A stretch of DNA of 44,763 nt. It comes from a virus. Both the position numbers and the translations under genes were made by a program. A model generated the notes under the pieces. The model did no database searches and had not been told where the DNA came from. It worked only from the letters and a program-made list of their open reading frames with translations. This document shows, piece after piece, positions 3,853 through 37,038 of the stretch; within the stretch, counting starts at the first letter, position 1; every line of letters starts with the position of its first letter. The stretch lies in the IMG/VR virus record IMGVR_UViG_3300036859_000370, positions 1-44,763 of that record. The stretch is one strand, 5' to 3'.

Positions 3853-4785
3853 TTAGGCTACTGCCGTCGTCCAGAGATACCCGCATGCTGCATTGAGCAG
3901 GACGTAATCGGCGATCTCACCGGTACGCACGACTTCGGCCTTGACCGGCTCGTCGCGATAGCTGCCCGACTGCGTATCCTCGAACACGCAACGATAGCCG
4001 AAGGACTGTTCCATGATCGCGGGTGCGGGATTCACATACGCGAGGCCGGCGAATTTGGCCCATAGCCAATCGCGGACGACTGTCGCGCCGCGTTTGTTCG
4101 ACAAGTACACGGCATCGCCAACGGCAATCTCGGTGAACCCAAAGAAGGTTGCGAACTGCTCCATCGTGACGACCTTCATCGCGTTCGAGCCGAGAATGCC
4201 AACAATGTCAGGATGCGCAGCGAGCTTCGCCCACACGGGCGCACCCATCCACATCTTGTTTGGCCGGAACCCGCTTGAGAGCGTCACAGCAAGAATCGCA
4301 GTATTGATGTCCTCGATCGGGGTGGAGTTCGTATAGTCACTCCACTGCTGTACGCCTGCGAGCGTTGCCTTGTTCGCTGTTGCATACGTGGCCGCCGTGT
4401 TCACCAAATTCGCGACGATGTTCTCTTTTGCACGCATCAGCTTGGCCGCACAAATTCGTGCGCCGCTCGTTCGCAGATCCAGAATATTCGAGTATGCAGC
4501 ACGCGTCACGTCGTCGATCGGATGCTCAATCGTGCGGTCCATGCAGCTGTAGGTCTTCGTCGATGCGACGTTGTATTCCAGCCGGACCGGACGCGTGAGC
4601 TCTGCACGTTCGAGCTGATCGATCCGTTGGGCTTCTTGCGCGGTGTCAACGTCGAGGAATCGTCCCGAAATCTCCGCGACTGGCAGATTCGGGAAAAGTT
4701 TCTGATGAATGAACTCGCCCCCACCGAACATGAGAGCGACGTTGGTCAAGATCGGGTTGACTGCAACTTCTCCGAGAACTGGCAT
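3853..4785 (-). CDS. Major capsid protein
   Basis: A 310-residue protein with features of phage coat proteins. The N-terminus describes a particle interface (NVALMFGGGEFIHQKLFPNLPV). Next comes a helical 'spine' region with ARICAAKLMRAKENIVANLV, then the motif PNKMWMGAPVWAKLAAHPDI, typical of capsid domains that arrange hexamers, and a beta-type C-terminus with RCVFEDTQSGSYRDEP. It lies directly after the protease/scaffold and decoration genes, in the order protease-scaffold-decoration-capsid expected for a Mu-like head module. Length fits the family. A 21-base spacer separates it from the decoration gene. Confidence 0.9.
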   Translation of the reverse strand: MPVLGEVAVNPILTNVALMFGGGEFIHQKLFPNLPVAEISGRFLDVDTAQEAQRIDQLERAELTRPVRLEYNVASTKTYSCMDRTIEHPIDDVTRAAYSNILDLRTSGARICAAKLMRAKENIVANLVNTAATYATANKATLAGVQQWSDYTNSTPIEDINTAILAVTLSSGFRPNKMWMGAPVWAKLAAHPDIVGILGSNAMKVVTMEQFATFFGFTEIAVGDAVYLSNKRGATVVRDWLWAKFAGLAYVNPAPAIMEQSFGYRCVFEDTQSGSYRDEPVKAEVVRTGEIADYVLLNAACGYLWTTAVA

Positions 4786-4806: not shown

Positions 4807-5205
4807 TTAGCCGTATGGTCTTGGCGTGATCGCGGTTACGCGGATGCGGTGATCGTCTTCGGTCGCCGCTTCGCGAGCGATTGCGCCGATGATGTCACCG
4901 GCGGTTGTCGTCACGACGCCCTTTCCGGCAGCGTCGGATTTCAACGAATCCCCAACTGCAATATCCGTGGTCGCGTCGACGACAAGAAAGGACTCGCCCT
5001 CCATTACAATGGAAGCGACTTCAGCGGCTGCGGGTGCGTTTTGCAGGATACCAACCATGCGGCCGCCAGCTCCGCAAATCACAATCTCGCCCGCTACTGT
5101 GTGCCCGGTCACGAACCGCCACTGGCGATTCGTCAACGACGCATTTGCCTTGAATGATCCGGCCTTGAGAACATGGCCGCCTGGAGCCTGGGATGCAGTA
5201 GGCAT
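4807..5205 (-). CDS. Head decoration-like protein (DUF2190-type)
   Basis: A 132-residue protein starting immediately after the scaffold stop. It is rich in Gly/Ala/Val with short beta strands: VTGHTVAGEIVICGAG, SFLVVDATTDIAVGDSLKSDAAGKG and DIIGAIAREAATEDDHRIRV. This pattern of a small barrel with a 'GD.L..da.G.' turn is typical of the DUF2190/decoration family that sits between scaffold and major capsid genes and stabilises the capsid lattice. The family call is from pattern memory; the role is supported by position. Confidence 0.75.
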   Translation of the reverse strand: MPTASQAPGGHVLKAGSFKANASLTNRQWRFVTGHTVAGEIVICGAGGRMVGILQNAPAAAEVASIVMEGESFLVVDATTDIAVGDSLKSDAAGKGVVTTTAGDIIGAIAREAATEDDHRIRVTAITPRPYG

Positions 5206-5766
5206 TTAACTCCCCCCCCCTTCGTATGCCGCAATCAATTTCGGATCGGTCTCACGGATGAAGTTGATGATCCGCGAGTCGTTCCATTCGGGATGCTCGG
5301 CGTGGAGTTTTTTCATGCGATCAGCGATCGCGATGGCTGGATCTGGCTTCTCGCCCGCATCCGTCTGTGCCGAAAACGTGCGGAACATCGCCTGGCAAGC
5401 CTTCTGAGAGTTGATGAACTCTTCGAAGACTTTCAGAGGGGACAACGTTGTTCCGTCCGCCGCAGAGAATGTTCTGACGCCTTCCTGTGCGCTCAATTCC
5501 GACAGTGCGTTGTGAATGAACTCAACGCGGTCCCGATCGCGCGGAAGGAACGACATCAACTTTTCATTGCAGTGATCGCTCGCGAACTGGTGCGCGGCTT
5601 GGAGACGTGTTTTCTTCGCGGCCTCCAATAGCGCCTTGTCACGATCCGCCTTTTCCTGCTCGAGCTTTGCGCGTTCGGCGGCGAAAGTTTTGCGATCCGC
5701 CTCAAGCTGATCCTGCTGCGCTTGAAGGGTAGCCTCGCGCTCTTTCAATTTCGTTTCGTCTGCCAT
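5206..5766 (-). CDS. Nested scaffold protein from an internal start
   Basis: Within the protease-scaffold gene, codon 196 (ATG at 5766-5764) is preceded by AAAGGAGCACGACGAC, a good ribosome binding site with about 9 bases of spacing. Translation from here would make a 186-residue protein consisting only of the coiled coil and helical tail. Lambda Nu3 and Mu Z scaffolds are produced from the 3' part of their protease genes in the same way. The site is visible; its use is inferred. Confidence 0.6.
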   Translation of the reverse strand: MADETKLKEREATLQAQQDQLEADRKTFAAERAKLEQEKADRDKALLEAAKKTRLQAAHQFASDHCNEKLMSFLPRDRDRVEFIHNALSELSAQEGVRTFSAADGTTLSPLKVFEEFINSQKACQAMFRTFSAQTDAGEKPDPAIAIADRMKKLHAEHPEWNDSRIINFIRETDPKLIAAYEGGGS

Positions 5767-6351
5767 GTCGTCGTGCTCCTTTTGCAGTGACGCGAGAAAA
5801 TTACGGATCGCCTCATCGCTTATCCCGCCGGGATACCGTGCAGGGATGCTTCCGAGCTCTCCGATAATTGCACCGTCGTCAACCGCAAAATTGAATACAT
5901 GCTTAAGCCCCTCGGGGTCAGCCGAGAGACCGAATAGCTTTGCTACGTCGGTAATCGAATAAAGTGCAGGCACGTCGGCACCTAACAGCGCCGCGCCGGA
6001 TAGCACAAATGGATGTTTGTTCTTCGTTTCGTCAGTGAAGTTCTGCCAAATCTCAGCGGAGATTTTCTTGTAAGCCTTGCGATCAATCAGGTTGAAAATG
6101 ACTTCTGGAACATCTTTGATGTCGGAGATTAGCTTCTTGCCAACCTTGCGGACGTTGTGCAGCCAACCTATCGCAGGTTGCCCGGCCATCTCCTGCTTCG
6201 GATCATGCGACAACTTAAAGGGGGGTTCCATCCCGGCGAGCTTCCGCGATGATTCAACAATCGCGTCCACAACCGACTCCGACCAGTCCTTTCCATTCCA
6301 GTGGCCCGGTGCAAAGAGCTCAACGCCTTCGAGCTTGTATTTCTGCGGCAT
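5206..6351 (-). CDS. Mu I-like prohead protease fused to scaffold
   Basis: A 381-residue protein. Residues 1-190 resemble phage Mu gpI-type head maturation proteases: FAPGHWNGKDW, PPFKLSHDPKQ, GWLHNVRKVGKKLISDI and RKAYKKISAEIWQNF. Residues ~196-270 are a long charged coiled coil (KLKEREATLQAQQDQLEADR), and the tail is helical and charged, as expected of a scaffold core cleaved during maturation. AGGAG lies 10 bases before ATG 6351. Upstream is a ~200-base structured leader with its own promoter. A strong internal start at 5766 would give a separate scaffold, as for Mu I/Z or lambda C/Nu3. The catalytic residue was not assigned with certainty. Confidence 0.88.
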   Translation of the reverse strand: MPQKYKLEGVELFAPGHWNGKDWSESVVDAIVESSRKLAGMEPPFKLSHDPKQEMAGQPAIGWLHNVRKVGKKLISDIKDVPEVIFNLIDRKAYKKISAEIWQNFTDETKNKHPFVLSGAALLGADVPALYSITDVAKLFGLSADPEGLKHVFNFAVDDGAIIGELGSIPARYPGGISDEAIRNFLASLQKEHDDMADETKLKEREATLQAQQDQLEADRKTFAAERAKLEQEKADRDKALLEAAKKTRLQAAHQFASDHCNEKLMSFLPRDRDRVEFIHNALSELSAQEGVRTFSAADGTTLSPLKVFEEFINSQKACQAMFRTFSAQTDAGEKPDPAIAIADRMKKLHAEHPEWNDSRIINFIRETDPKLIAAYEGGGS

Positions 6352-6555
6352 CTAATTGCGTCTCCTGTTTCGGCAAACAAAAAGGGCGCTCCGGTGAGGG
6401 AGACTCAATCTCACCGAAACGCCCTTAGTTTGCGTTTGCCGTCCCGATACTAAGCTTCGGGACCGAATCGCGGTTGCAAGCCGCGCCGGGTTTTCAATGA
6501 CCCCCCAGCCATTTCGGTGGGGGGGGACCGGAGATGCGATCTCCGGCGATGACTG
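6352..6555 (-). promoter_or_regulatory. Structured 5' leader of the capsid operon with four hairpins
   Basis: Between the promoter at 6562-6591 and ATG 6351 the minus-strand transcript would hold successive stem-loops: 6528-6546 (8 bp, GCG loop in the DNA), C6/G8 at 6501-6526, GTCCCGA/TCGGGAC at 6441-6463, and a large final hairpin. The last has a 17-bp inner stem (6382-6398 with 6410-6426, 11-base loop) enclosed by an 8-bp outer stem (6371-6378 with 6434-6441). In the inner stem two of the 17 pairs are G.U only when read as minus-strand RNA, which argues that RNA rather than DNA is the functional form. Five U residues follow the inner stem, as in an intrinsic terminator. It could be a terminator/antiterminator, a put-like antitermination element or a translational control. 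Confidence 0.7.
6371..6441 (-). terminator. Terminator-shaped large hairpin in the capsid leader
   Basis: The GC-rich 17-bp stem (arms 6382-6398 and 6410-6426) is followed on the minus strand by TTTTT (6383-6379) and then by the outer arm GTTTGCCG. It is placed just before the protease ribosome binding site, so it must be bypassed or regulated for head genes to be expressed. It would also end transcripts from the upstream moron genes. Confidence 0.55.
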
Positions 6556-6561
6556 TCTCGG

Positions 6562-6591
6562 ATTATTGCATCAGCGTTTATGTCTTGTCAA
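6562..6591 (-). promoter_or_regulatory. Sigma70-type promoter for the capsid operon
   Basis: On the minus strand TTGACA (6591-6586), an 18-base spacer and AATAAT (6567-6562) give a near-consensus promoter. The predicted start near 6555 lies just upstream of the first leader hairpin and about 200 bases before the protease gene. Confidence 0.65.
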
Positions 6592-6624
6592 GGGGTGGTG
6601 GGTGATGAATGGATCGAACGCTAG

Positions 6625-6822
6625 CTATGTGGACTTCCGCGGTCTCCCCGGTCCCGGCCTCTCCGCGACACGCTTCAACGCCGCACGCGAAATGAGCCAC
6701 TGCCCCCCCCTGCTGTCGGGTCCGATGCGTGTCGCCTTGATCCGGCGGGTCGCGATCAATTGAAGGACACGACGCGGGGAGATACCGAGGATGTCAGCAG
6801 CCTGGGAGACGGTTAGCATCAT
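6625..6822 (-). CDS. Small HTH protein, excisionase/MerR-like DNA-binding fold
   Basis: A 65-residue protein starting ATGATG at 6822. LTVSQAADILGISPRRVLQL followed by IATRRIKATRIGPDSRGGQW is the classic winged helix-turn-helix of excisionase/MerR-type mini-regulators (residues 4-48), ending in an Arg/Pro tail. It is the last gene of the moron-like block and lies just upstream of the capsid promoter at 6562-6591, which it might bind. Alternatively it may be a recombination directionality factor for the serine integrase. The fold is a firm call; the target is unknown. Confidence 0.8.
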   Translation of the reverse strand: MMLTVSQAADILGISPRRVLQLIATRRIKATRIGPDSRGGQWLISRAALKRVAERPGPGRPRKST

Positions 6823-7191
6823 TCATTCTACCTCCACAAGTTTGGCCCACTGTACAGGCAGAGAGATAGTCGCCCGATCCTGTGCGATGTCCACGACCAA
6901 CACTACGACTTGGATAGGAGGTGGGCCGTGTGGTTCGTCGCCATCACGATGGATGCGACCGTATATACCCTGGGTACCCATACCCTCGGTGTCCGTTGCT
7001 GCCGGATAGACCAGTATCTCGGCTCTCCGTACACCGCGTATCCATTCGAATGGATATGGACTGATATCGAGGTGTGTTCGAATCCAGTCGAGGTACCCAC
7101 CTGCACACACACCCGGCGGTAGAGGAATCACCACACGCAGGATGTGCCCGTGTTCGAGCCGGCCACGTTGCTGTCCGGAGAGGGTCCACAT
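6823..7191 (-). CDS. Hypothetical protein of the moron block
   Basis: A 122-residue protein with AGGAAAGGGGAATGAC before ATG 7191. It begins MWTLSGQQRGRLEHGHI and contains beta-type, aromatic sequence (GYLDWIRTHLDISPYPFEW), ending with hydrophobic strands (IQVVVLVVDIAQDRATISL). It overlaps the upstream gene by 64 bases and its stop abuts the HTH start. I recognise no family. Its place suggests non-essential or regulatory cargo within the head module. Confidence 0.6.
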   Translation of the reverse strand: MWTLSGQQRGRLEHGHILRVVIPLPPGVCAGGYLDWIRTHLDISPYPFEWIRGVRRAEILVYPAATDTEGMGTQGIYGRIHRDGDEPHGPPPIQVVVLVVDIAQDRATISLPVQWAKLVEVE

Positions 7192-7388
7192 GTCATTCCC
7201 CTTTCCTGCAAATTCTCGTCATCCTCTGGTGACCAATCCCTAGTGGTGTCCACTACGTATTGCCGTCGTCCTTTGGTGACGGCTGTGTGCACGGCGACCC
7301 CCAACTCCTCCTCGGTCATCTGGTCCGGGTACTGGATATCCTCGATTACATCTCCGGTGTTCCACTGGATTCTGACTATTATCTCCAT
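7128..7388 (-). CDS. Hypothetical small protein of the moron block
   Basis: An 86-residue protein with AAGGAGGGGAAGGGAA before ATG 7388. The sequence MEIIVRIQWNTGDVIEDIQY and the acidic middle suggest a compact alpha/beta protein. The last ~20 residues are encoded in the overlap with the next gene. The pyrimidine-rich segment before its ribosome binding site is a near copy of that before the neighbouring gene (7393-7417 versus 7631-7655). Function unknown. Confidence 0.58.
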   Translation of the reverse strand: MEIIVRIQWNTGDVIEDIQYPDQMTEEELGVAVHTAVTKGRRQYVVDTTRDWSPEDDENLQERGMTCGPSPDSNVAGSNTGTSCVW

Positions 7389-7438
7389 TTCCCTTCCCCT
7401 CCTTGCAATCTCTCCCCGCCTCCTCCCTGGGCGGTGAG

Positions 7439-7630
7439 CTACTGCGTAGCAGCCTCGGCTTCTTCCTGCAATGCATCGCGGTCCTGGTCTGATTCCGGGA
7501 CCACGAGATATTGACGCTGCTTTGCCATGCGTCCGGCATCGCGCCGGGCGCGGCGTATTGCGCTATTGCATTCTCGGAGCGAGGCTCCGGGACCAGCTAT
7601 TCGTACATCTCCTTCATAAGCCATCATCAT
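7439..7630 (-). CDS. Hypothetical small protein of the moron block
   Basis: A 63-residue protein. I chose the ATG cluster at 7630/7627/7624, directly behind AGGAAGGGGAAG, rather than a longer upstream frame. The product begins MMMAYEGDVRIAGPGASLRE and continues as a charged helix rich in Arg and Glu (AIRRARRDAGRMAKQRQYL). No family recognised. It belongs to the leftward unit started by the promoter at 8149-8176. Confidence 0.5.
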   Translation of the reverse strand: MMMAYEGDVRIAGPGASLRECNSAIRRARRDAGRMAKQRQYLVVPESDQDRDALQEEAEAATQ

Positions 7631-7697
7631 CTTCCCCTTCCTGCAATCTCTCCCCCTCCCTCCTCTCGTGACTCCTGTGAGGAGGGTGGGCGAGGGA

Positions 7698-8102
7698 CTA
7701 CGGACGGTCTCCATGCGGTAGATAGCCATCGATGCCGATGGCGTAAACCGCCGGCTCATCAGCGCATACGATCATTAGATGGATATCGCCCGTGGGTCGC
7801 TGGATCAGACTGGCATGATATCCAGGCCGCTCCCAGTTGTGGGAATCGCTCTCTACTGGGACGTATCCCGCGTTGCGTAGGTCCTCGGGACCTATCCCGC
7901 CTCGAACCCAAGCCCCATATGTCCTGCCGTCTGATGTCTCAGCGTACATTTCGGCCTCGGCAATGGCAGGGGTGCCACGCCATTCTTTCGGCGCACAAGC
8001 CCGACACCACGCCGTGATCAATCGCCCACTGGCGAGGTCCTCCATATCCTCTGGGGACAGAGGGTATTCCGCTCCGCAGTTCTCGCAGGAGTATGTCTCC
8101 AT
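7698..8102 (-). CDS. Zinc-ribbon protein, first gene behind the moron promoter
   Basis: A 134-residue protein with AAAGGAG ten bases before ATG 8102. The N-terminus has YSCENCGAEYPLSPEDMEDL followed by AWCRACAPKEW, a CxxC...CxxC zinc ribbon. The remainder is an alpha/beta domain of unknown type (YAETSDGRTYGAWVRGGIGP, SLIQRPTGDIHLMIVCADEP). It is the first gene downstream of a consensus promoter inserted between head genes, the arrangement of a moron. Function unknown. Confidence 0.65.
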   Translation of the reverse strand: METYSCENCGAEYPLSPEDMEDLASGRLITAWCRACAPKEWRGTPAIAEAEMYAETSDGRTYGAWVRGGIGPEDLRNAGYVPVESDSHNWERPGYHASLIQRPTGDIHLMIVCADEPAVYAIGIDGYLPHGDRP

Positions 8103-8148: not shown

Positions 8149-8176
8149 ATTATACCACGAGTGGCAGGAATGTCAA
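8149..8176 (-). promoter_or_regulatory. Consensus sigma70 promoter of the moron block
   Basis: Minus-strand TTGACA (8176-8171), a 16-base spacer and TATAAT (8154-8149) match both consensus boxes exactly. The predicted start lies about 40 bases before ATG 8102. It can be used by unmodified host RNA polymerase, so the following genes could be expressed from the prophage. Confidence 0.8.
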
Positions 8177-8601: not shown

Positions 8602-10769
8602 TTAAACCCCTCCTGTATCAGATCAATCCCCTGCCTCTTCTGCGCATCGCTGATCCGCGTATACATTTCACCCTCGATCACCGGGACCAGCGTTGACCGG
8701 CAATTGAAGTGATTGGGGGGGGTAACCTGGTCTAATGCCGGGTCGCCGATCTCGAAGACCTTGCCATCCAGCGCACGGCAGATGTCGGTTGTGCGCTCAT
8801 CCAGTATCGCACTGTACTCCACCGCCTTGACGAATCCCTCCAGGTCGGGATCGCGAAACGTCTGCAGCCGTCCCGCGTTGAATGCTTCGTTGGAGTTCGT
8901 CCTGATCACCGTCTCAAGGCGCGTAGCCGTCGATACTTCACCGTCAACCAGCTCACCGGTTTCGAAGTACGGGGTAAACGCCCGCTGAATCTCGTAGATC
9001 GTATCGCGAGTGGACTTGCCCATCTTCATTGCATTGAACAAGATCTGTTTTACATCCTTCAAGATCCGGCCAGATTCAACGCCCGTTAGCATTATCGCCT
9101 TCCGCTCGAAGAACTCCAGCGCCTCTTTCGGTAATAGCGGCTGAAACGATTGGAAGTTGGCACGCTTTAAGTCGCGCCGCGCTGTCCGCTGGCCGCGTTC
9201 ATACTGTGATCGCAGGAAATCTTTGAACGATGTATGCAGGTCGCCTTTGTATCGCAGATCAAGCTTGTCGATTTCGCTTATACGTTTCTCTTGGATGATT
9301 TGGCGTTTGGCGATGTTCGAAATCAGTGAATCCCGGATCTTGCGCACGATAGCCGATGCAGTGACTACAGCCTTCGCTTCCGACATATCCAACTCTTCCG
9401 CAATGGCGAACCAATCCACCTTTTGCTCATGTGCATTCGGCTCGCGCGACAGCTTGCGTGCAAACTTGCGCGGATTGTCGTCCTCGTCCTGGTCCTCGTC
9501 TTCGTCCTCGTCTTCTTCAACCTTTGGCATCTCGCGCGGCTCACCTGGGGGGGGGAACGATATCAATTCGCGTATATGTATCTCGTCGTCATCGGTTGCC
9601 CGCACAGTGCCATTAGCAACGCCGTCGTAGAACAGCTTCACGTTGCCCTGCGAATCTTCGAAGCTCACGTCATTGATATTGAACTTCGGCAGCTTGTTCA
9701 CGGTGAAATTCCAGCGTACAAGTTCCGGGATCACCTGCTCATTGAATCCTGCTTCGCTGTCCTGCACTACGAGCAGGATTACCGGCAAGAACCCGCGCGC
9801 CTGGACTTCGCCTAACGCTCGTGATCCGCGATCGCCGCGGTTCGACAACCCGGTCATTTCGGGAAAACCGAACGCGCGCGCTATGCGTGACTCGTGGCGT
9901 TCAATGGCCCGGTCAAATGCACGCTCGCCGTTGCCGGCAATCTCCATGAATTCGATCACGAGCTCCTCGGGTATGGTAATGGCTGTTGATGCCTGGATGG
10001 ATTCAATGATTGCTTTGAGCTTATCCTGCTCAGGCTTCGTGAATGACCGCGGGTATTTGCCCGTGACGGTCGGTATCCCGAAGCGCTCAAGGTACATGTT
10101 CCAGAACCGGGTTATCTGCGTGATCGCAAAGTACGGTTCATGCACGGCGCGGAGATCAGACGTACCATACGGATTATCGAATTCGCTCTGGTATGCGTAG
10201 TGGAGGAACTTCCAGCGCGGCATTGCCTTTTGTGGGTTTAGCTGATAGATACCGTCGTCGCGCAACGTTCCATCTTCATTCGTGCGCAGCTCGAAGTTTT
10301 CCGGGTCGCGCGTTGCCAGCCGCGTCAGTCCGATCTTTCCGCGCCAGGGATCTTCTTCGATGATGCCGTACACCTTCTCCGACACTGAAAACCCAAAGTC
10401 GAGCGCGGACAGGAGTTCCCACAGCGTCATCGAAAACGACCCGCGCAGCTTAGTCAGATTCCACGTGATGAATTCAGCGACTTGCGTATCAGCTGGTGAC
10501 TCCGACGCCGGATCAACACGCCATCCTGCGCTGATGACATCCATTTTCTTCTGTTGCAGGAACGGTTTCACCGATGTGTGGTTGCGCATCTTCTTGTATT
10601 CGGACATGCCCTTGCGCCTGATCACATCATCGGGGTTTTGCCATGAGTAGTAGCTCATGCCCGCCGTGGCGCTGCGGTTGGATGACGACAGCGTTACGTC
10701 AAGGGGGGGCGTGGGGGGGGATTCGGTCGTAGCTCCAAAGTATTGGCGAACCCGATCAAACAGACGCAT
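8598..10769 (-). CDS. Portal protein fused to Mu F-like head morphogenesis protein
   Basis: A 723-residue fusion. Residues ~40-410 resemble DUF935/Mu gp29-type portals (VKPFLQQKKMDVISAGWRV, RWKFLHYAYQSEFDNPYG, MTGLSNRGDRGSRALGEVQA). A strongly acidic linker (EVEEDED-type run near residue 430) follows. Residues ~470-720 form a helical domain ending in the Mu F-like signature EYSAILDERTTDICRALDGK ... TPPNHFNCRSTLVPV. In Mu these are two genes (portal gp29 and gp30/F). The fused protein would form the dodecameric portal vertex with its minor head domain attached. It overlaps terminase by 14 bases. Confidence 0.93.
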   Translation of the reverse strand: MRLFDRVRQYFGATTESPPTPPLDVTLSSSNRSATAGMSYYSWQNPDDVIRRKGMSEYKKMRNHTSVKPFLQQKKMDVISAGWRVDPASESPADTQVAEFITWNLTKLRGSFSMTLWELLSALDFGFSVSEKVYGIIEEDPWRGKIGLTRLATRDPENFELRTNEDGTLRDDGIYQLNPQKAMPRWKFLHYAYQSEFDNPYGTSDLRAVHEPYFAITQITRFWNMYLERFGIPTVTGKYPRSFTKPEQDKLKAIIESIQASTAITIPEELVIEFMEIAGNGERAFDRAIERHESRIARAFGFPEMTGLSNRGDRGSRALGEVQARGFLPVILLVVQDSEAGFNEQVIPELVRWNFTVNKLPKFNINDVSFEDSQGNVKLFYDGVANGTVRATDDDEIHIRELISFPPPGEPREMPKVEEDEDEDEDQDEDDNPRKFARKLSREPNAHEQKVDWFAIAEELDMSEAKAVVTASAIVRKIRDSLISNIAKRQIIQEKRISEIDKLDLRYKGDLHTSFKDFLRSQYERGQRTARRDLKRANFQSFQPLLPKEALEFFERKAIMLTGVESGRILKDVKQILFNAMKMGKSTRDTIYEIQRAFTPYFETGELVDGEVSTATRLETVIRTNSNEAFNAGRLQTFRDPDLEGFVKAVEYSAILDERTTDICRALDGKVFEIGDPALDQVTPPNHFNCRSTLVPVIEGEMYTRISDAQKRQGIDLIQEGFK

Positions 10770-12608: not shown

Positions 12609-12929
12609 TCACTTCTCCTTTCGATTTTTGAAATAGCTGACAGGGAGTGCAACTCCCTCCGTACGCGCTATCGCATTGCCATCCAGGTAACACTTCGATT
12701 CATCAAGCATATTATCCCAACCCATCGCAGTAATGAAAGCATCGCATTGATCTTGTGATGAAAACACGATGGGGATGTAATAGGACATCGACACCTTCTC
12801 TTCCACGGCTTTGCGAATCTGCATTATCGTGGAGTCGGTGATCTCTTTGTGAGCAGCCTCTAACGATGCCCCCCCCTCGTGCTTCACCTTGCGACGGTTG
12901 CGGATTCTTTGTTCAAGCGATACTGGCAT
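12609..12929 (-). CDS. Companion protein of the PP-loop enzyme, unknown
   Basis: A 106-residue protein beginning MPVSLEQRIRNRRKVKHEGG, overlapping the PP-loop gene stop by 17 bases. It has a basic N-terminal helix, a middle SYYIPIVFSSQDQCDAFITA that looks like a small alpha/beta domain, and a C-terminus with DESKCYLDGNAIARTEGVAL. Tight coupling to the PAPS-reductase-like gene suggests that the two act together. I do not recognise the family. Confidence 0.68.
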   Translation of the reverse strand: MPVSLEQRIRNRRKVKHEGGASLEAAHKEITDSTIMQIRKAVEEKVSMSYYIPIVFSSQDQCDAFITAMGWDNMLDESKCYLDGNAIARTEGVALPVSYFKNRKEK

Positions 12930-13644
12930 GTCGAGTCACCTCCTGACGGGCATAGCACAGGTCCACCAATGGAAACCAGTCTTTTATCGTTGCGTAATCA
13001 TCTGGTCGCATCACTTTGATTGGCGTTAGAAAGCGCTCATCAACGCCATCGAATGATCGGCCAAACCAGGAATAATCTATCGGCAGTTTCAATCCCGCGT
13101 CTGCGATGCAGCGATAGACTTCATCGTTAGTCATATCGAACACCGGCGTAAAGGTACACTGACCACGCGAGATCGGCCCATGCCGCGCCAGCCCAATTCG
13201 TCGCATCATGCTATCTCCAGCGCGCACGCCATGCGCACACCACGGAATACGCATTCCGTGCTCATCAGCCAGTTTGCGATTGATCTGCATATAGTTCGTG
13301 CGCGGCAAGTCCATAGCCTCGATGATTCGTATTCGCTCCGGCGTCTGATAGCCACACGTTTTCAGCCAGTGCCAGAAGTTAGGATGCATGACCCGGTGGA
13401 TGTGCGTCTCGAATTTGTCCTCGAAGTACAACAGGGATTCCTCCACAAAGCGCAAACCCGGGATGAGCAACATGTGAAAGGGAATCACCTTGAATCCGTA
13501 ATCGCGAAGAACGATCCAAGACGCGAGAGAGTCTTTGCCACGACTGAATGAAAGCAGAACCGTATCAGTCAGGGACTTGATGTGCGCCAACACATCGGCG
13601 CGGGTCGCCAGTTTTTCAGTTGTCGGAATATTGCTCACGATCAT
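12913..13644 (-). CDS. PP-loop/PAPS-reductase-like enzyme
   Basis: A 243-residue protein. SFSRGKDSL at residues ~32-40 is the PP-loop (S-x-x-G-x-D-S) of adenine nucleotide alpha hydrolases. RIPWCAHGVRAGD and the later block CTFTPVFDMTNDEVYRCIAD match the substrate region of the PAPS reductase/DndC-like superfamily. These enzymes activate a substrate with ATP for sulfur transfer or reduction. In phages they often occur beside small partner genes, and roles in DNA or RNA modification or redox have been suggested. Here it lies between a membrane protein and the 106-residue companion, with its start overlapping the upstream stop (TGATG). Confidence 0.88.
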   Translation of the reverse strand: MIVSNIPTTEKLATRADVLAHIKSLTDTVLLSFSRGKDSLASWIVLRDYGFKVIPFHMLLIPGLRFVEESLLYFEDKFETHIHRVMHPNFWHWLKTCGYQTPERIRIIEAMDLPRTNYMQINRKLADEHGMRIPWCAHGVRAGDSMMRRIGLARHGPISRGQCTFTPVFDMTNDEVYRCIADAGLKLPIDYSWFGRSFDGVDERFLTPIKVMRPDDYATIKDWFPLVDLCYARQEVTRHASIA

Positions 13645-13868: not shown

Positions 13869-14295
13869 TCGATATCGATTGTCGCGCCTCCTGGATTTTC
13901 GCGCGCTGCGATTCCTGCCATTCGATGATGTGCTGATGCTGCGCGATTGCGCGTTTGATTTCGGTCATGATCTGCTGAGGTCCTATTTCGCCTTTCATCA
14001 GGATGCCGGAAATCCCATAAACCGGCATGGCTTTGATTACGTCGTCCTCGACGAGGCCCGAGTATAGCAGGATCGGGATGCGGGTTTCGATTGCTCGGAC
14101 CTGCTCGATGGTTTTGATTCCCTTGCTGTCGTCCACGTTCAGGTCAAGAACAACCAAATCAAAACCGTTATCGTTGATCTCGTTTGCGCTGTCCTTGATG
14201 CTGGTCGTTCGCACGACTTTGGCATTCAGCGGCTCGATGCAGTCGATGAAAACCTGCGCGTTGATGTCCGAGTCTTCGACCAGTAGAATTTTCAT
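13861..14295 (-). CDS. Stand-alone response-regulator receiver (CheY-like)
   Basis: A 144-residue receiver domain with all key residues: E7/D8 acidic pocket (ILLVEDSDIN), phospho-acceptor D51 (LVVLDLNVDD), switch S79 (PILLYSG) and K101 (GILMKG). After ~residue 115 only a helical tail remains (IAQHQHIIEWQESQRAKIQE), so no DNA-binding output domain exists. Its ATG overlaps the sigma-factor stop by 4 bases (ATGA), so the two are co-translated. Phage-encoded receivers are uncommon. It may control the sigma factor or divert host two-component signalling. Function inferred; fold certain. Confidence 0.93.
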   Translation of the reverse strand: MKILLVEDSDINAQVFIDCIEPLNAKVVRTTSIKDSANEINDNGFDLVVLDLNVDDSKGIKTIEQVRAIETRIPILLYSGLVEDDVIKAMPVYGISGILMKGEIGPQQIMTEIKRAIAQHQHIIEWQESQRAKIQEARQSISNG

Positions 14296-14765
14296 CGTCG
14301 CAGCTTCCGCTTTGCCCGGGACAATGCGTTGTCAACCTGCTTGTAGGTCAACTCCGTCATGATTGCGATTCGCTTCATGCCGACACCCTCGATGAACAGC
14401 ATCATCACGCGCCGCTCGGTCCCGCGCAGTTGGTTGCAGATTGACTCAACCCACAGTTTCGAAACTGTCGCATGTTCTGGCGACGGTTCGGCATCGGCCA
14501 TATCGTATCCGTCGATGTCGACTGTTGCAAGAGCAGTTCGGAGCGGGCGATGCAACGATGCCTGCATCTCGTTGCGGATGCACAGCGACACGAATGCGCG
14601 GAAGGATAAGCCCCGCGCTGGATCATATGTGCGGATGCCGCGGAGCAAACCTATCCTGCCCTCCTGCATCAGGTCGTCTCGGTCGATCCAGGCTGGGCCG
14701 TGGAAACGCTTGACCAGGTGCTGCACAAACGGCTCAAACTCGCCCAGCAATTCTTCTTCTTGCAA
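14292..14765 (-). CDS. Sigma-70 family RNA polymerase sigma factor
   Basis: A 157-residue sigma factor. Region 2 spans ~8-72 (DLMQEGRIGLLRGIRTYDPA, then FRAFVSLCIRNEMQASL) and region 4 spans ~112-157 (LRGTERRVMMLFIEGVGMKR, then MTELTYKQVDNALSRAKRKL). It is a compact two-domain factor that should redirect host polymerase, probably to late promoters. The start is TTG 14765-14763, two bases after the preceding stop, with GAGGAG about 13 bases upstream. It is coupled to the receiver gene, suggesting a regulatory pair ahead of the packaging and head genes. Confidence 0.92.
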   Translation of the reverse strand: MQEEELLGEFEPFVQHLVKRFHGPAWIDRDDLMQEGRIGLLRGIRTYDPARGLSFRAFVSLCIRNEMQASLHRPLRTALATVDIDGYDMADAEPSPEHATVSKLWVESICNQLRGTERRVMMLFIEGVGMKRIAIMTELTYKQVDNALSRAKRKLRR

Positions 14766-26426: not shown

Positions 26427-27703
26427 GCTGCACCCCCCCGAATCCATGCCAGAAGTTCTCGCATGGAAGCAATGATCGTGTCACTTGATTGCTCGGGGCC
26501 CTTGAGGTTCAGCGCTTTCGCAAGGTGGAAGTTTTGCGCCATGCCGAGTCCGAGGCGGATGCTTGCGTACTTCTTTTTGACTTCGTCGCGCTCGGCGTAC
26601 TCCGCGATCTCGGAGGCCAGCTCGTCGTAGGTCATCTGATCGACGTCGACCGATGCGTGACCTTCCACGAGCTCCCCCTGGTAGAACGTATCATCGGCGT
26701 CGGGAATCTCACCCGTACACGCGGAGCAATCCACACGTCGGTCGTCATCTTGTTGCCGCTCCAGGTGCTTATCGACCGTTTGCATGTGCTCGAGCGTTGC
26801 ATCTCCCCACGACTCTAACCCGAGCTTTACCGCATGTCGATGCAGCAGGTCGTGGGAATACGTCCCATGTAACGCGGCGTTGAGTTTTGTCCGCGGGTCT
26901 CGCTTATCGGGCGGCGCTTCTTCTTCGGCTGGCATCCCCTGCGCGTTGCCATTATTCAGCCAGACGCCTTCCCCGCATTCCTTCTTCTTGCATTTGAAGT
27001 CCGGCGCATTCGGTTTGTGTGCGCCCGATGCTTTTTTGTCGCGATTATCCCACATGGAGCCATTACATTTCGGGCACCGTGGGGGGGGAGCCTTCGCTGT
27101 TTCTCCAGCCTCAGCGCGTACTTCCTCCATGTCCTGCGTGAAGAATTCGGACGCTGCGGTTGCATTCAGGGTCGCGGCGATATATGCGCTCTTTTGCGCC
27201 ATTTTCAGCGTCGAGTTGTGGCACAGTCCGGGGTCGTTCGCCTGACGCGGAATGAGTCCCTTCTTCTGGCTGAAATGGTAGTTGCTCGCCGAACCAATTC
27301 CCGACCCGGCAAACAGCCCCCCTTTCAACAACGTGCATTTCACCACAATCTGATAGCGTTGCGTCATGTCCACTGGAGGCATAGAGGGACCGGACACAAT
27401 CTCGTAATCAGGCACCAGTCCATGCGGCAAGCACACCAGTTCCGCACCTTCCTTCGTCAATCCAGGCTTGGCGTTGCCGATAGTGTAGAAATGTTTGTCC
27501 TCCTTCAGGCGATCGCGGATGTACTGTTCCAGTAGATCCCGCTGACGAGTAGCAAGCGCGAACTGATGCTCCAGTTCCGCGATAGACGGCAGGCTCTGCG
27601 CAACGAGTTCCCCCCCCCGTTCTCTTACTGCTAATGCATCTCCGTTCATTCCGTTCTTGCCTTTCGCTTCCCGTACGACGACTTGACCTTTCACATCCGA
27701 CAT
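26423..27703 (-). CDS. Putative phage single-strand annealing/recombination protein with zinc ribbon
   Basis: A 426-residue protein. Residues ~45-200 carry a block I associate with a phage and bacterial recombination-associated family (DLLEQYIRDRLKEDKHFYTI, KPGLTKEGAELVCLPHGLVP, then SSTLKMAQKS-type helix and AATLNATAASEFFTQDMEE). A zinc ribbon follows at ~208-250 (PPRCPKCNGSMWDNRDKK ... FKCKKKECGEGVWL). The C-terminal ~150 residues are helical and charged. Its neighbours (Gp157-like, HNH, RusA) support a DNA recombination role. No RecT or Erf signature was seen, so the biochemical class is uncertain. A C9 run at 27610-27618 encodes Gly-Gly in frame. Confidence 0.68.
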   Translation of the reverse strand: MSDVKGQVVVREAKGKNGMNGDALAVRERGGELVAQSLPSIAELEHQFALATRQRDLLEQYIRDRLKEDKHFYTIGNAKPGLTKEGAELVCLPHGLVPDYEIVSGPSMPPVDMTQRYQIVVKCTLLKGGLFAGSGIGSASNYHFSQKKGLIPRQANDPGLCHNSTLKMAQKSAYIAATLNATAASEFFTQDMEEVRAEAGETAKAPPPRCPKCNGSMWDNRDKKASGAHKPNAPDFKCKKKECGEGVWLNNGNAQGMPAEEEAPPDKRDPRTKLNAALHGTYSHDLLHRHAVKLGLESWGDATLEHMQTVDKHLERQQDDDRRVDCSACTGEIPDADDTFYQGELVEGHASVDVDQMTYDELASEIAEYAERDEVKKKYASIRLGLGMAQNFHLAKALNLKGPEQSSDTIIASMRELLAWIRGGAA

Positions 27704-27786
27704 GCTATCATCACCTCAATCTTTCCCGTTGTTTGTGGGTCCGGTTCGTTAACGCGAATCGGGCCCATTTCGTTTTTGTGGCTCAT
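27691..27786 (-). CDS. 31-residue peptide gene
   Basis: ATG 27786 is preceded by AAAAGGAGAAGAAACGG. The frame (MSHKNEMGPIRVNEPDPQTT and 11 more residues) ends at TGA 27693-27691, overlapping the start of the annealing-type gene by 13 bases. The good ribosome binding site and overlap suggest real translation, perhaps for coupling. Confidence 0.45.
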   Translation of the reverse strand: MSHKNEMGPIRVNEPDPQTTGKIEVMIACRM

Positions 27787-29982: not shown

Positions 29983-30225
29983 GTATCCTCCTTTAGCGGC
30001 GCTCGCAACGACGACGCGCCCTGCTGCCTCTGTTGCCACTTTGCGAGGGTGGAATGAAGCGCTCAGCTCGTCGCCGACGCGAACCCCGCAAAAACAAATA
30101 ACCTCGCTGGAGTCACGCCCGCTGGTAACACTCATGGGGATGAGTGCGGGCAGGTCTGCCCGCCAACATGGCGGGCGTGATTCCAACGAGGCCAGTCTTC
30201 CAGCGTTAATCCCCATGTTATTACC
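29983..30225 (-). promoter_or_regulatory. Long structured leader of the Cro-like early operon
   Basis: Transcripts from the leftward promoter (start near 30226) carry ~240 bases before GTG 29982. The upstream half folds into a large cruciform. A 21-base stem pairs 30171-30191 with 30102-30122 (one G.U and one mismatch) and encloses two perfect hairpins placed back to back: ACTCAT-N4-ATGAGT (30130-30145) and GCGGGCAG-N2-CTGCCCGC (30146-30163). On the minus strand the closing arm is followed by TTATTTGTTTTT. This has the form of an intrinsic terminator or attenuator. Confidence 0.7.
30090..30191 (-). terminator. Cruciform leader hairpin with U-rich tail
   Basis: The four-arm structure (outer stem 30102-30122/30171-30191, inner hairpins 30130-30145 and 30146-30163) ends in a T-rich stretch on the minus strand (30101-30090). 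It would stop or pause early leftward transcription shortly after the promoter unless bypassed. Premature termination controls early transcription in P4-like immunity, which gives a precedent. Confidence 0.55.
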
Positions 30226-36223: not shown

Positions 36224-36727
36224 TCAGCCAGGGTCCGCGCCGGGGTCTGCCGTACCCGTTCCCGTATCGTATGTGGCCAGCGTAACTTCGATGTCGTATG
36301 GATATGCGGCCAGATCCAATGCGCAGGCGTCGAAAGAGTAATCCCCACTGGCGTCTGTAGTGTCTGTCGCAATTGTTGAGCCGCTCTTTTTGAGTGTGAC
36401 CGTCGCGCCCGCAAGAGCGGCCCCCCCTGCGCAGTTGGTAACTTTGCCGAAGATGAGGGCTGCGGTAACTGACCCCGCCGGATTGCTGAGACAGTACGGA
36501 AAGAAATTGGAGCAACACCCATCTTGATTCGCTGATCGTTTGGCGCGTCCCCACAGATATGCCGAGTGTTTGAAGTGTGTTTGGCCTGCGCCGCAACCAT
36601 CATCATCCAGCCCTGTGTATGTAACGCATTGACTGGAATCACTGGTGAACTCTCCATTGAGCGTACAAACCTTCAGTAACTGACCAGCCTTACACGGCGT
36701 CCAACAAGGTGTGCCAGAAATGGCCAT
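36224..36727 (-). CDS. CarboxypepD-regulatory-like tail protein, ends at TGA 36226
   Basis: A 167-residue protein with a Cys-rich N-terminus (CWTPCKAGQLLKVCTLNGEF then CGAGQTHFKHSAY, and CCSNFFPYCLSN). A carboxypeptidase-regulatory-like beta sandwich follows (GKVTNCAGGAALAGATVTLK, STIATDTTDASGDYSF). Such domains are common on phage tail adhesins and decoration proteins. It ends GTADPGADPG before TGA, after which the same frame continues open. Start ATG 36727 shares one base with the upstream stop (TGATG). Confidence 0.72.
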   Translation of the reverse strand: MAISGTPCWTPCKAGQLLKVCTLNGEFTSDSSQCVTYTGLDDDGCGAGQTHFKHSAYLWGRAKRSANQDGCCSNFFPYCLSNPAGSVTAALIFGKVTNCAGGAALAGATVTLKKSGSTIATDTTDASGDYSFDACALDLAAYPYDIEVTLATYDTGTGTADPGADPG

Positions 36728-37038
36728 CAGTCATTCTCGTCTTGTGCTTTTCTGCATGGTCCACAATACGCCTTCGCTGCCGCCATCACAATATGTTTAG
36801 GGATACCATTTTCACGCGCATACTTATCGACGCGATTTAATACGATTTTGTCGCGGAAGATAAACTGACTCCCATCGATTTCGATTGTCTTTCCCAACCT
36901 GCGTTCGATGAATTGGATGGCTTCCGGTTCTGTCTCGACAAGCGGGACGCTACACAACGGACAAGGATCAGCCGCACTAAGCTCTTTCCCATCGTACTCA
37001 TGCGCACGGACAAAGAATCCGCAGGAGCAGCGTATCAT
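36727..37038 (-). CDS. Zinc-ribbon tail-region protein
   Basis: A 103-residue protein with MIRCSCGFFVRAHEYDGKEL then CPLCSVPL, and a C-terminal YCGPCRKAQ, giving CxC/CxxC pairs for one or two zinc sites. The middle segment (EAIQFIERRLGKTIEIDGSQ) is helical. It overlaps the tape measure by 4 bases (ATGA). Possibly a tail assembly or tip accessory. Confidence 0.65.
   Translation of the reverse strand: MIRCSCGFFVRAHEYDGKELSAADPCPLCSVPLVETEPEAIQFIERRLGKTIEIDGSQFIFRDKIVLNRVDKYARENGIPKHIVMAAAKAYCGPCRKAQDEND

Follow-up and report, generated by a model that had tools for sequence, protein, structure and literature searches.

Introduction

In the pR'-tR' unit of phage lambda (6S RNA), a strong promoter is followed by a short leader RNA that is ended by an intrinsic terminator, with the late genes lying beyond it. 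The put RNA of phage HK022 acts on polymerase via the zinc-binding domain of beta', and the late promoter of phage Mu requires the activator C. Studies of how phages adjust scaffold and capsid protein, in quantity and in time, relative to other parts of the virion have mostly dealt with promoters and translation. Lambda Q loads at a promoter-proximal pause (PMC7171158), and the put element of HK022 comprises about 70 nt with two stem-loops, present in two similar copies after the early promoters (PMC9378689). Leader pseudoknots serve translational control in T4 gene 32 and in rpsO (S15), and a 2010 review considered the gene 32 pseudoknot possibly the sole viral one in translational autoregulation (PMC3014915). 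Attenuators, late-leader terminators and leader pseudoknots are all already known.

We analyzed a stretch of 44,763 bases from a virus of bacteria (IMG/VR record IMGVR_UViG_3300036859_000370), of which the whole length is called the window below. The leader of its capsid operon resembles lambda pR'-tR' in having a strong promoter, a short leader and an intrinsic terminator with genes beyond, but differs in that the terminator abuts the Shine-Dalgarno (SD) sequence of a head gene. With HK022 put it has in common that a structured RNA lies in a phage operon leader with terminators downstream, whereas the window has a single copy of a five-hairpin structure, which precedes late genes. In T4 gene 32, the pseudoknot acts as the nucleation point for gp32 upstream of the ribosome binding site (RBS), whereas the loop in the window is predicted to pair with the SD itself. 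The first-pass annotation knew of no described element of this form. This holds for Rfam and the literature searched, in which we found no terminator that lies between a strong promoter and a protease-scaffold gene and whose loop fits the SD, but the layout itself recurs in two viral contigs (L183 and L175) and in the phages RR1-B, RcapMu and RcWaterboi.

Promoter and fold of the leader

The minus strand carries, in this order, a helix-turn-helix (HTH) gene, a promoter, about 200 untranslated bases, the protease-scaffold gene with its ATG at 6351, and the cement and major capsid genes (Table 1). The near-consensus promoter proposed earlier was recovered on the minus strand at or close to the expected place, as the sole match of the promoter scan within positions 5000-8000. 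Its spacing would put the transcription start at about 6556. From its position only, the HTH_17 protein is a candidate regulator of the leader. The spacer of the second, sigma-70 promoter further upstream holds a CCACTCGTGG palindrome.

Table 1. Features of the capsid operon leader and its surroundings in the window.
Feature	Position	Strand	Remarks
Promoter TTGACA (6591-6586), 18 nt, AATAAT (6567-6562)	6562-6591	minus	11/12 match, extended -10, TG at 6570-6569
Second promoter, upstream of the small genes preceding the leader	8149-8176	minus	12/12 consensus match, extended -10
Small HTH_17 protein, 65 aa, basic GRPRK tail	6625-6822	minus	just upstream of promoter
Hairpin 1, perfect 8-bp dyad CCGGAGAT-CGC-ATCTCCGG	6528-6546	minus	folding and repeat search
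Hairpin 2, C-rich arm with G-rich arm	6501-6524	minus	folding
Hairpin 3	6463-6489	minus	folding
Hairpin 4	6442-6462	minus	folding
Outer stem around terminator hairpin, arms 6441-6433 and 6379-6371	6371-6441	minus	
Terminator hairpin (hairpin 5), 17-bp stem 6426-6410/6398-6382, 11-nt loop 6409-6399	6382-6426	minus	-30.2 kcal/mol
U-rich tail UUUUUGUUU (U5GU3)	6375-6383	minus	sequence
SD segment GGAGACGCAAT of protease-scaffold gene	6355-6365	minus	complementary to terminator loop
Head maturation protease-scaffold gene, 381 aa	5206-6351	minus	first gene after leader
Cement gene	4807-5205	minus	after protease-scaffold gene
Major capsid gene	3853-4785	minus	after cement gene

RNA folding of 6560-6352 gave -98.7 kcal/mol, compared to -71.3 ± 4.6 kcal/mol for dinucleotide shuffles (z = -5.97, 0 of 200 shuffles). 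The sequence feature as such is real and well beyond chance. Folding gives five stem-loops in place of the four originally described. When the whole record was scanned in segments of 100 nt, the segment from 6376 was second only to an inverted repeat near 30101. The dyad of hairpin 1 has no further copy in the 44,763 bases, and this hairpin could equally be a DNA operator. Comparison of the leader RNA with Rfam gave nothing at gathering score; the best match below threshold (mir-3622, 26.6 vs 78 bits) was judged to be a chance hit on a long hairpin.

Two further ideas were discarded. Leader-peptide attenuation was rejected because no SD precedes the sole reading frame that begins with ATG within the leader (6512, 20 aa), and an antiterminator in which CACCGAAA and CCGAAAC would pair with the 5' arm of the terminator was unconvincing (P of 0.05 and 0.015, post hoc).

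A terminator between promoter and protease-scaffold gene

The hairpin preceding the protease-scaffold gene has what defines an intrinsic terminator, i.e., in the orientation of the transcript, a stable GC-rich stem with a U-rich tract immediately behind it. This element (6426-6375) sits between the promoter and the SD, as had been claimed for a terminator-shaped structure directly before the protease RBS; its tail reads UUUUUGUUUG and the 3' end of the hairpin lies 30 nt upstream of the ATG. The d'Aubenton-Carafa type score was +31 on the minus strand (+11.6 when the stem is taken to include the two closing A-U pairs), and the plus strand scored -21. The element is therefore directional, toward the capsid genes, and transcripts would be released at the U-rich tail. 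The 17-bp stem was correctly described as having two G.U pairs only in the transcribed direction, since these become A.C mismatches on the plus strand. The outer stem is likewise present, its length being 8-9 bp instead of 8, and the reported U5 is part of a fuller tract, U5GU3.

The explanation that we favor, with moderate confidence, is a promoter-proximal transcription attenuator that gates the capsid operon, possibly with a second, translational lock. The host RNA polymerase would start at about 6556 and transcribe about 180 nt of strongly folded leader, and a large part of this RNA would end at the terminator in vivo. Only polymerases that read through would reach the protease-scaffold, cement and major capsid genes, and read-through would be regulated rather than a fixed leak. 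Transcripts arriving from the second promoter would also meet the terminator. Such a promoter-terminator arrangement probably limits or times capsid production. The promoter match, the directional terminator, its position, its complementarity to the SD described below and the recurrence of the layout in other phages are all evident in the sequences.

By analogy, the leader is best read as working like lambda pR'-tR', without a recognizable Q protein. A Q-type late leader as such was rejected, since the antiterminator families PF06530 and PF03589 are absent from the phage (a search with PF06323 was uninformative) and inspection of the first transcribed bases (GAGACAGTCATCGCC) revealed no NANNAT pause hexamer. 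The absence of these two Q families counts against the attenuator, as do the lack of a leader homologue and the fact that most relatives have no terminator.

Possible pairing of the terminator loop with the Shine-Dalgarno segment

A repeat search revealed a feature missing from the first-pass annotation: 10 of the 11 bases in the terminator loop (ATTGAGTCTCC) are complementary to the SD segment of the protease-scaffold gene. The chance of such a match is 1.2e-4 for random 11-mers and 4e-4 when the letters of the loop are shuffled, and 0 of 20,000 shuffled RBS regions reached it. The loop-SD duplex has a calculated energy of -12.0 kcal/mol vs -7.4 kcal/mol for the 16S tail, and by duplex energy the protease SD is the joint best partner of the loop among the 104 candidate RBSs of the window. 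Judged from geometry, the outer stem must open for this pairing, since the linker spans 5 nt with the stem and 16 nt without it. In read-through RNA with an open outer stem, the loop would be able to pair with the SD, which may provide the second lock of the attenuator. We regard the pairing as a good candidate at the level of prediction.

The same match could instead serve a purely translational switch, in which the SD is free when the outer stem is formed, and an open stem allows an H-type pseudoknot between loop and SD that blocks ribosomes, the choice being made by scaffold, capsid or HTH protein. The statistics and energies above speak for it, as does the fact that the SD forms part of a hairpin immediately ahead of the ATG in RR1-B and in RcapMu/RcWaterboi. 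On the other hand, 2.7% (0.027) of dinucleotide-shuffled loops reach 10/11 and 0.4% of random 11-mers from the window equal the duplex energy, and inspection of L183 and L175 found no comparable match. A full 11-bp helix within an 11-nt loop is sterically unlikely, the realistic core being GUCUCC:GGAGAC, and both the U tail and the directionality would be superfluous in a translational switch. We consider such a switch unlikely.

Recurrence of the layout in other phages

The phage collection held no close relatives of the record. Leader homologues were found neither by DNA search in phages nor by loop pattern in viral contigs, and single-sequence scans with the protease gave no match in viral and genome contigs. 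A scan with the terminase identified relatives with up to 66% identity; only a few of the stretches retrieved (L018, L071) carry even a distantly related capsid gene, and none has a similar leader. When alignments of protease, terminase and portal were used for scanning, the portal and protease relatives recovered mostly showed 25-40% identity, and the majority of them lack a leader of comparable structure in front of the protease. Among about 145 proteases whose upstream regions were searched under strict criteria, only those of L175 and L183 (a contig identical to L268) have a strong U-tract terminator immediately ahead of the start.

Contig L183 has the promoter TTGACA-17-TAAAAT (8921-8949), a hairpin, a 16-bp U-tract terminator, AGGAGG and the ATG at 9082 (z = -6.8). 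In L175, a 19-bp stem that ends 27 nt before the protease ATG (8322) is accompanied by a U7 tract and an SD; further upstream, a 10/12 promoter match falls within a short reading frame and is less certain. Contig L182 has a terminator immediately ahead of its portal start. The leader sequences of L183 and L175 are unrelated to that of the window, and no Rfam matches were obtained for L183, L175, L182 and RR1-B.

That unrelated phages show this layout too lends support to a control of capsid expression at this step. The earlier statement that capsid synthesis must be controlled here goes too far, however, since the sequence is also compatible with a terminator of constant leakiness or with a small RNA that stands alone. 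The restriction of the terminator to a few relatives speaks for a control that was acquired and can be adjusted, and against a core requirement.

Two side observations emerged from the contigs. In L183, the promoter and the next hairpin (AACCGCGnCATAAAAGAGnCnCGGGAATC) are repeated before the portal and protease genes (5421-5508 and 8910-8998), possibly as a promoter-linked RNA or operator element. In two related phages (L019 at 4884, L026 at 7986), a terminator with a common GCACTACA/TGTAGTGC stem directly precedes the SD of a holin-like gene.

Mu-type phages

Twelve Mu-type phages were examined; they have the same kind of protease-capsid module, and their protease gene is preceded by a 150-285 nt gap. 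As in the window, the protease-scaffold gene heads the capsid genes in phage Mu, with its late promoter PI, and in the gene I operons of the Mu type. Three of the twelve (RR1-B, RcWaterboi and RcapMu) have a terminator-like hairpin with about 49 nt between the end of its 3' arm and the protease ATG, and the sequence immediately preceding the ATG, SD included, folds into a further hairpin. They thus share with the window a terminator hairpin shortly before the protease ATG and a structured SD region, whereas their sequences are dissimilar to it. Between RR1-B and RcWaterboi, about 5 of 10 pairs of the hairpin are changed on both sides with pairing kept, and these compensatory changes, which come from two lineages with the structural register placed by hand, support the hairpin. 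A near-consensus promoter was not found in RR1-B, and the literature searched contains no description of the three leaders as attenuators.

No such terminator is seen in Mu, B3, KS10, phiSHP3, Bhz63, YPCBV-1, KP12, AFS-2018a and Lsp-JY19. Mu, B3 and KS10 differ from the window in having a gap free of terminators, and the Mu promoter is activator-dependent whereas that of the window is near consensus. The gene immediately upstream of the protease in KS10 is annotated as late activator, and the HTH gene of the window occupies the corresponding place. Several unrelated phage groups carry a terminator ahead of the protease-scaffold gene, and one of these phages infects Rhodobacter capsulatus, a laboratory host, which opens capsid-operon attenuation to direct tests.

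Gaps of the length seen in the Mu-type phages are also expected at the boundary of a transcription unit. The terminator could accordingly insulate the capsid operon against transcription from upstream and let through a constant fraction of polymerases that sets the capsid dose, with no regulation, and hairpin 1, a perfect 8+3+8 dyad at about +10 to +28 that adjoins the HTH gene, may be an HTH operator. An insulating terminator is expected upstream of the operon's own promoter, but here and in L183 it lies downstream, and we find a boundary with a fixed leak unlikely.

One may also envisage an elaborate form of the attenuator, a two-layer RNA switch for capsid assembly in which one hairpin is both terminator and, via its loop, an anti-SD lock competing with the outer stem. 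Capsid, scaffold or HTH protein would set the balance so that scaffold and capsid synthesis follows assembly, and equivalent leaders, each combining a terminator with an SD lock, would have evolved in unrelated phages with the same head module. We judge this combination decidedly unlikely.

Because promoter and terminator bracket a compact structured RNA, the locus might be a small RNA gene whose free product of about 180 nt acts elsewhere, the capsid genes being read from upstream promoters. One other RBS (ORF 36727-37038) resembles the loop target, but look-alike targets occur at chance level (4 found vs 3.2 expected), and the placement relative to the SD of the protease gene and the repeated occurrence ahead of such genes indicate action in cis, which makes a small RNA gene very improbable.

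The put-like processive antitermination by the RNA itself that was suggested at first, with the initial hairpins modifying polymerase so that it passes the terminator, would suit an RNA of several hairpins placed immediately downstream of a promoter and ahead of a terminator, and the promoter-linked hairpin of L183 is present at two promoters, but it is hard to credit for the window, where the leader has no second copy and no Rfam match, and where size and hairpin number deviate from those of the two-stem put of about 70 nt (PMC9378689).

Other regulators and features

Apart from the putative promoter-proximal attenuator, the window contains further regulators and structured elements. An ECF-type sigma factor of 157 aa, with regions 2 and 4 only, is encoded on the minus strand (14292-14765), and two HTH regulator genes lie near 30 kb beside the inverted repeat 30100-30195, which is the most stable one of the window and strong on both strands. 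None of these three regulators is tied to the leader by evidence. A second long hairpin (TTACC.TCCCCCC / GGGGGG.GGGTAA), without a U tract, is located between genes of the capsid operon on the minus strand (about 2908-2990). A phosphoadenosine phosphosulfate reductase-like gene is found near the terminase gene (12913-13644, minus strand). On the plus strand, a 15-bp terminator-like hairpin lies no more than 25 nt downstream of a 10/12 promoter match (27683-27768).
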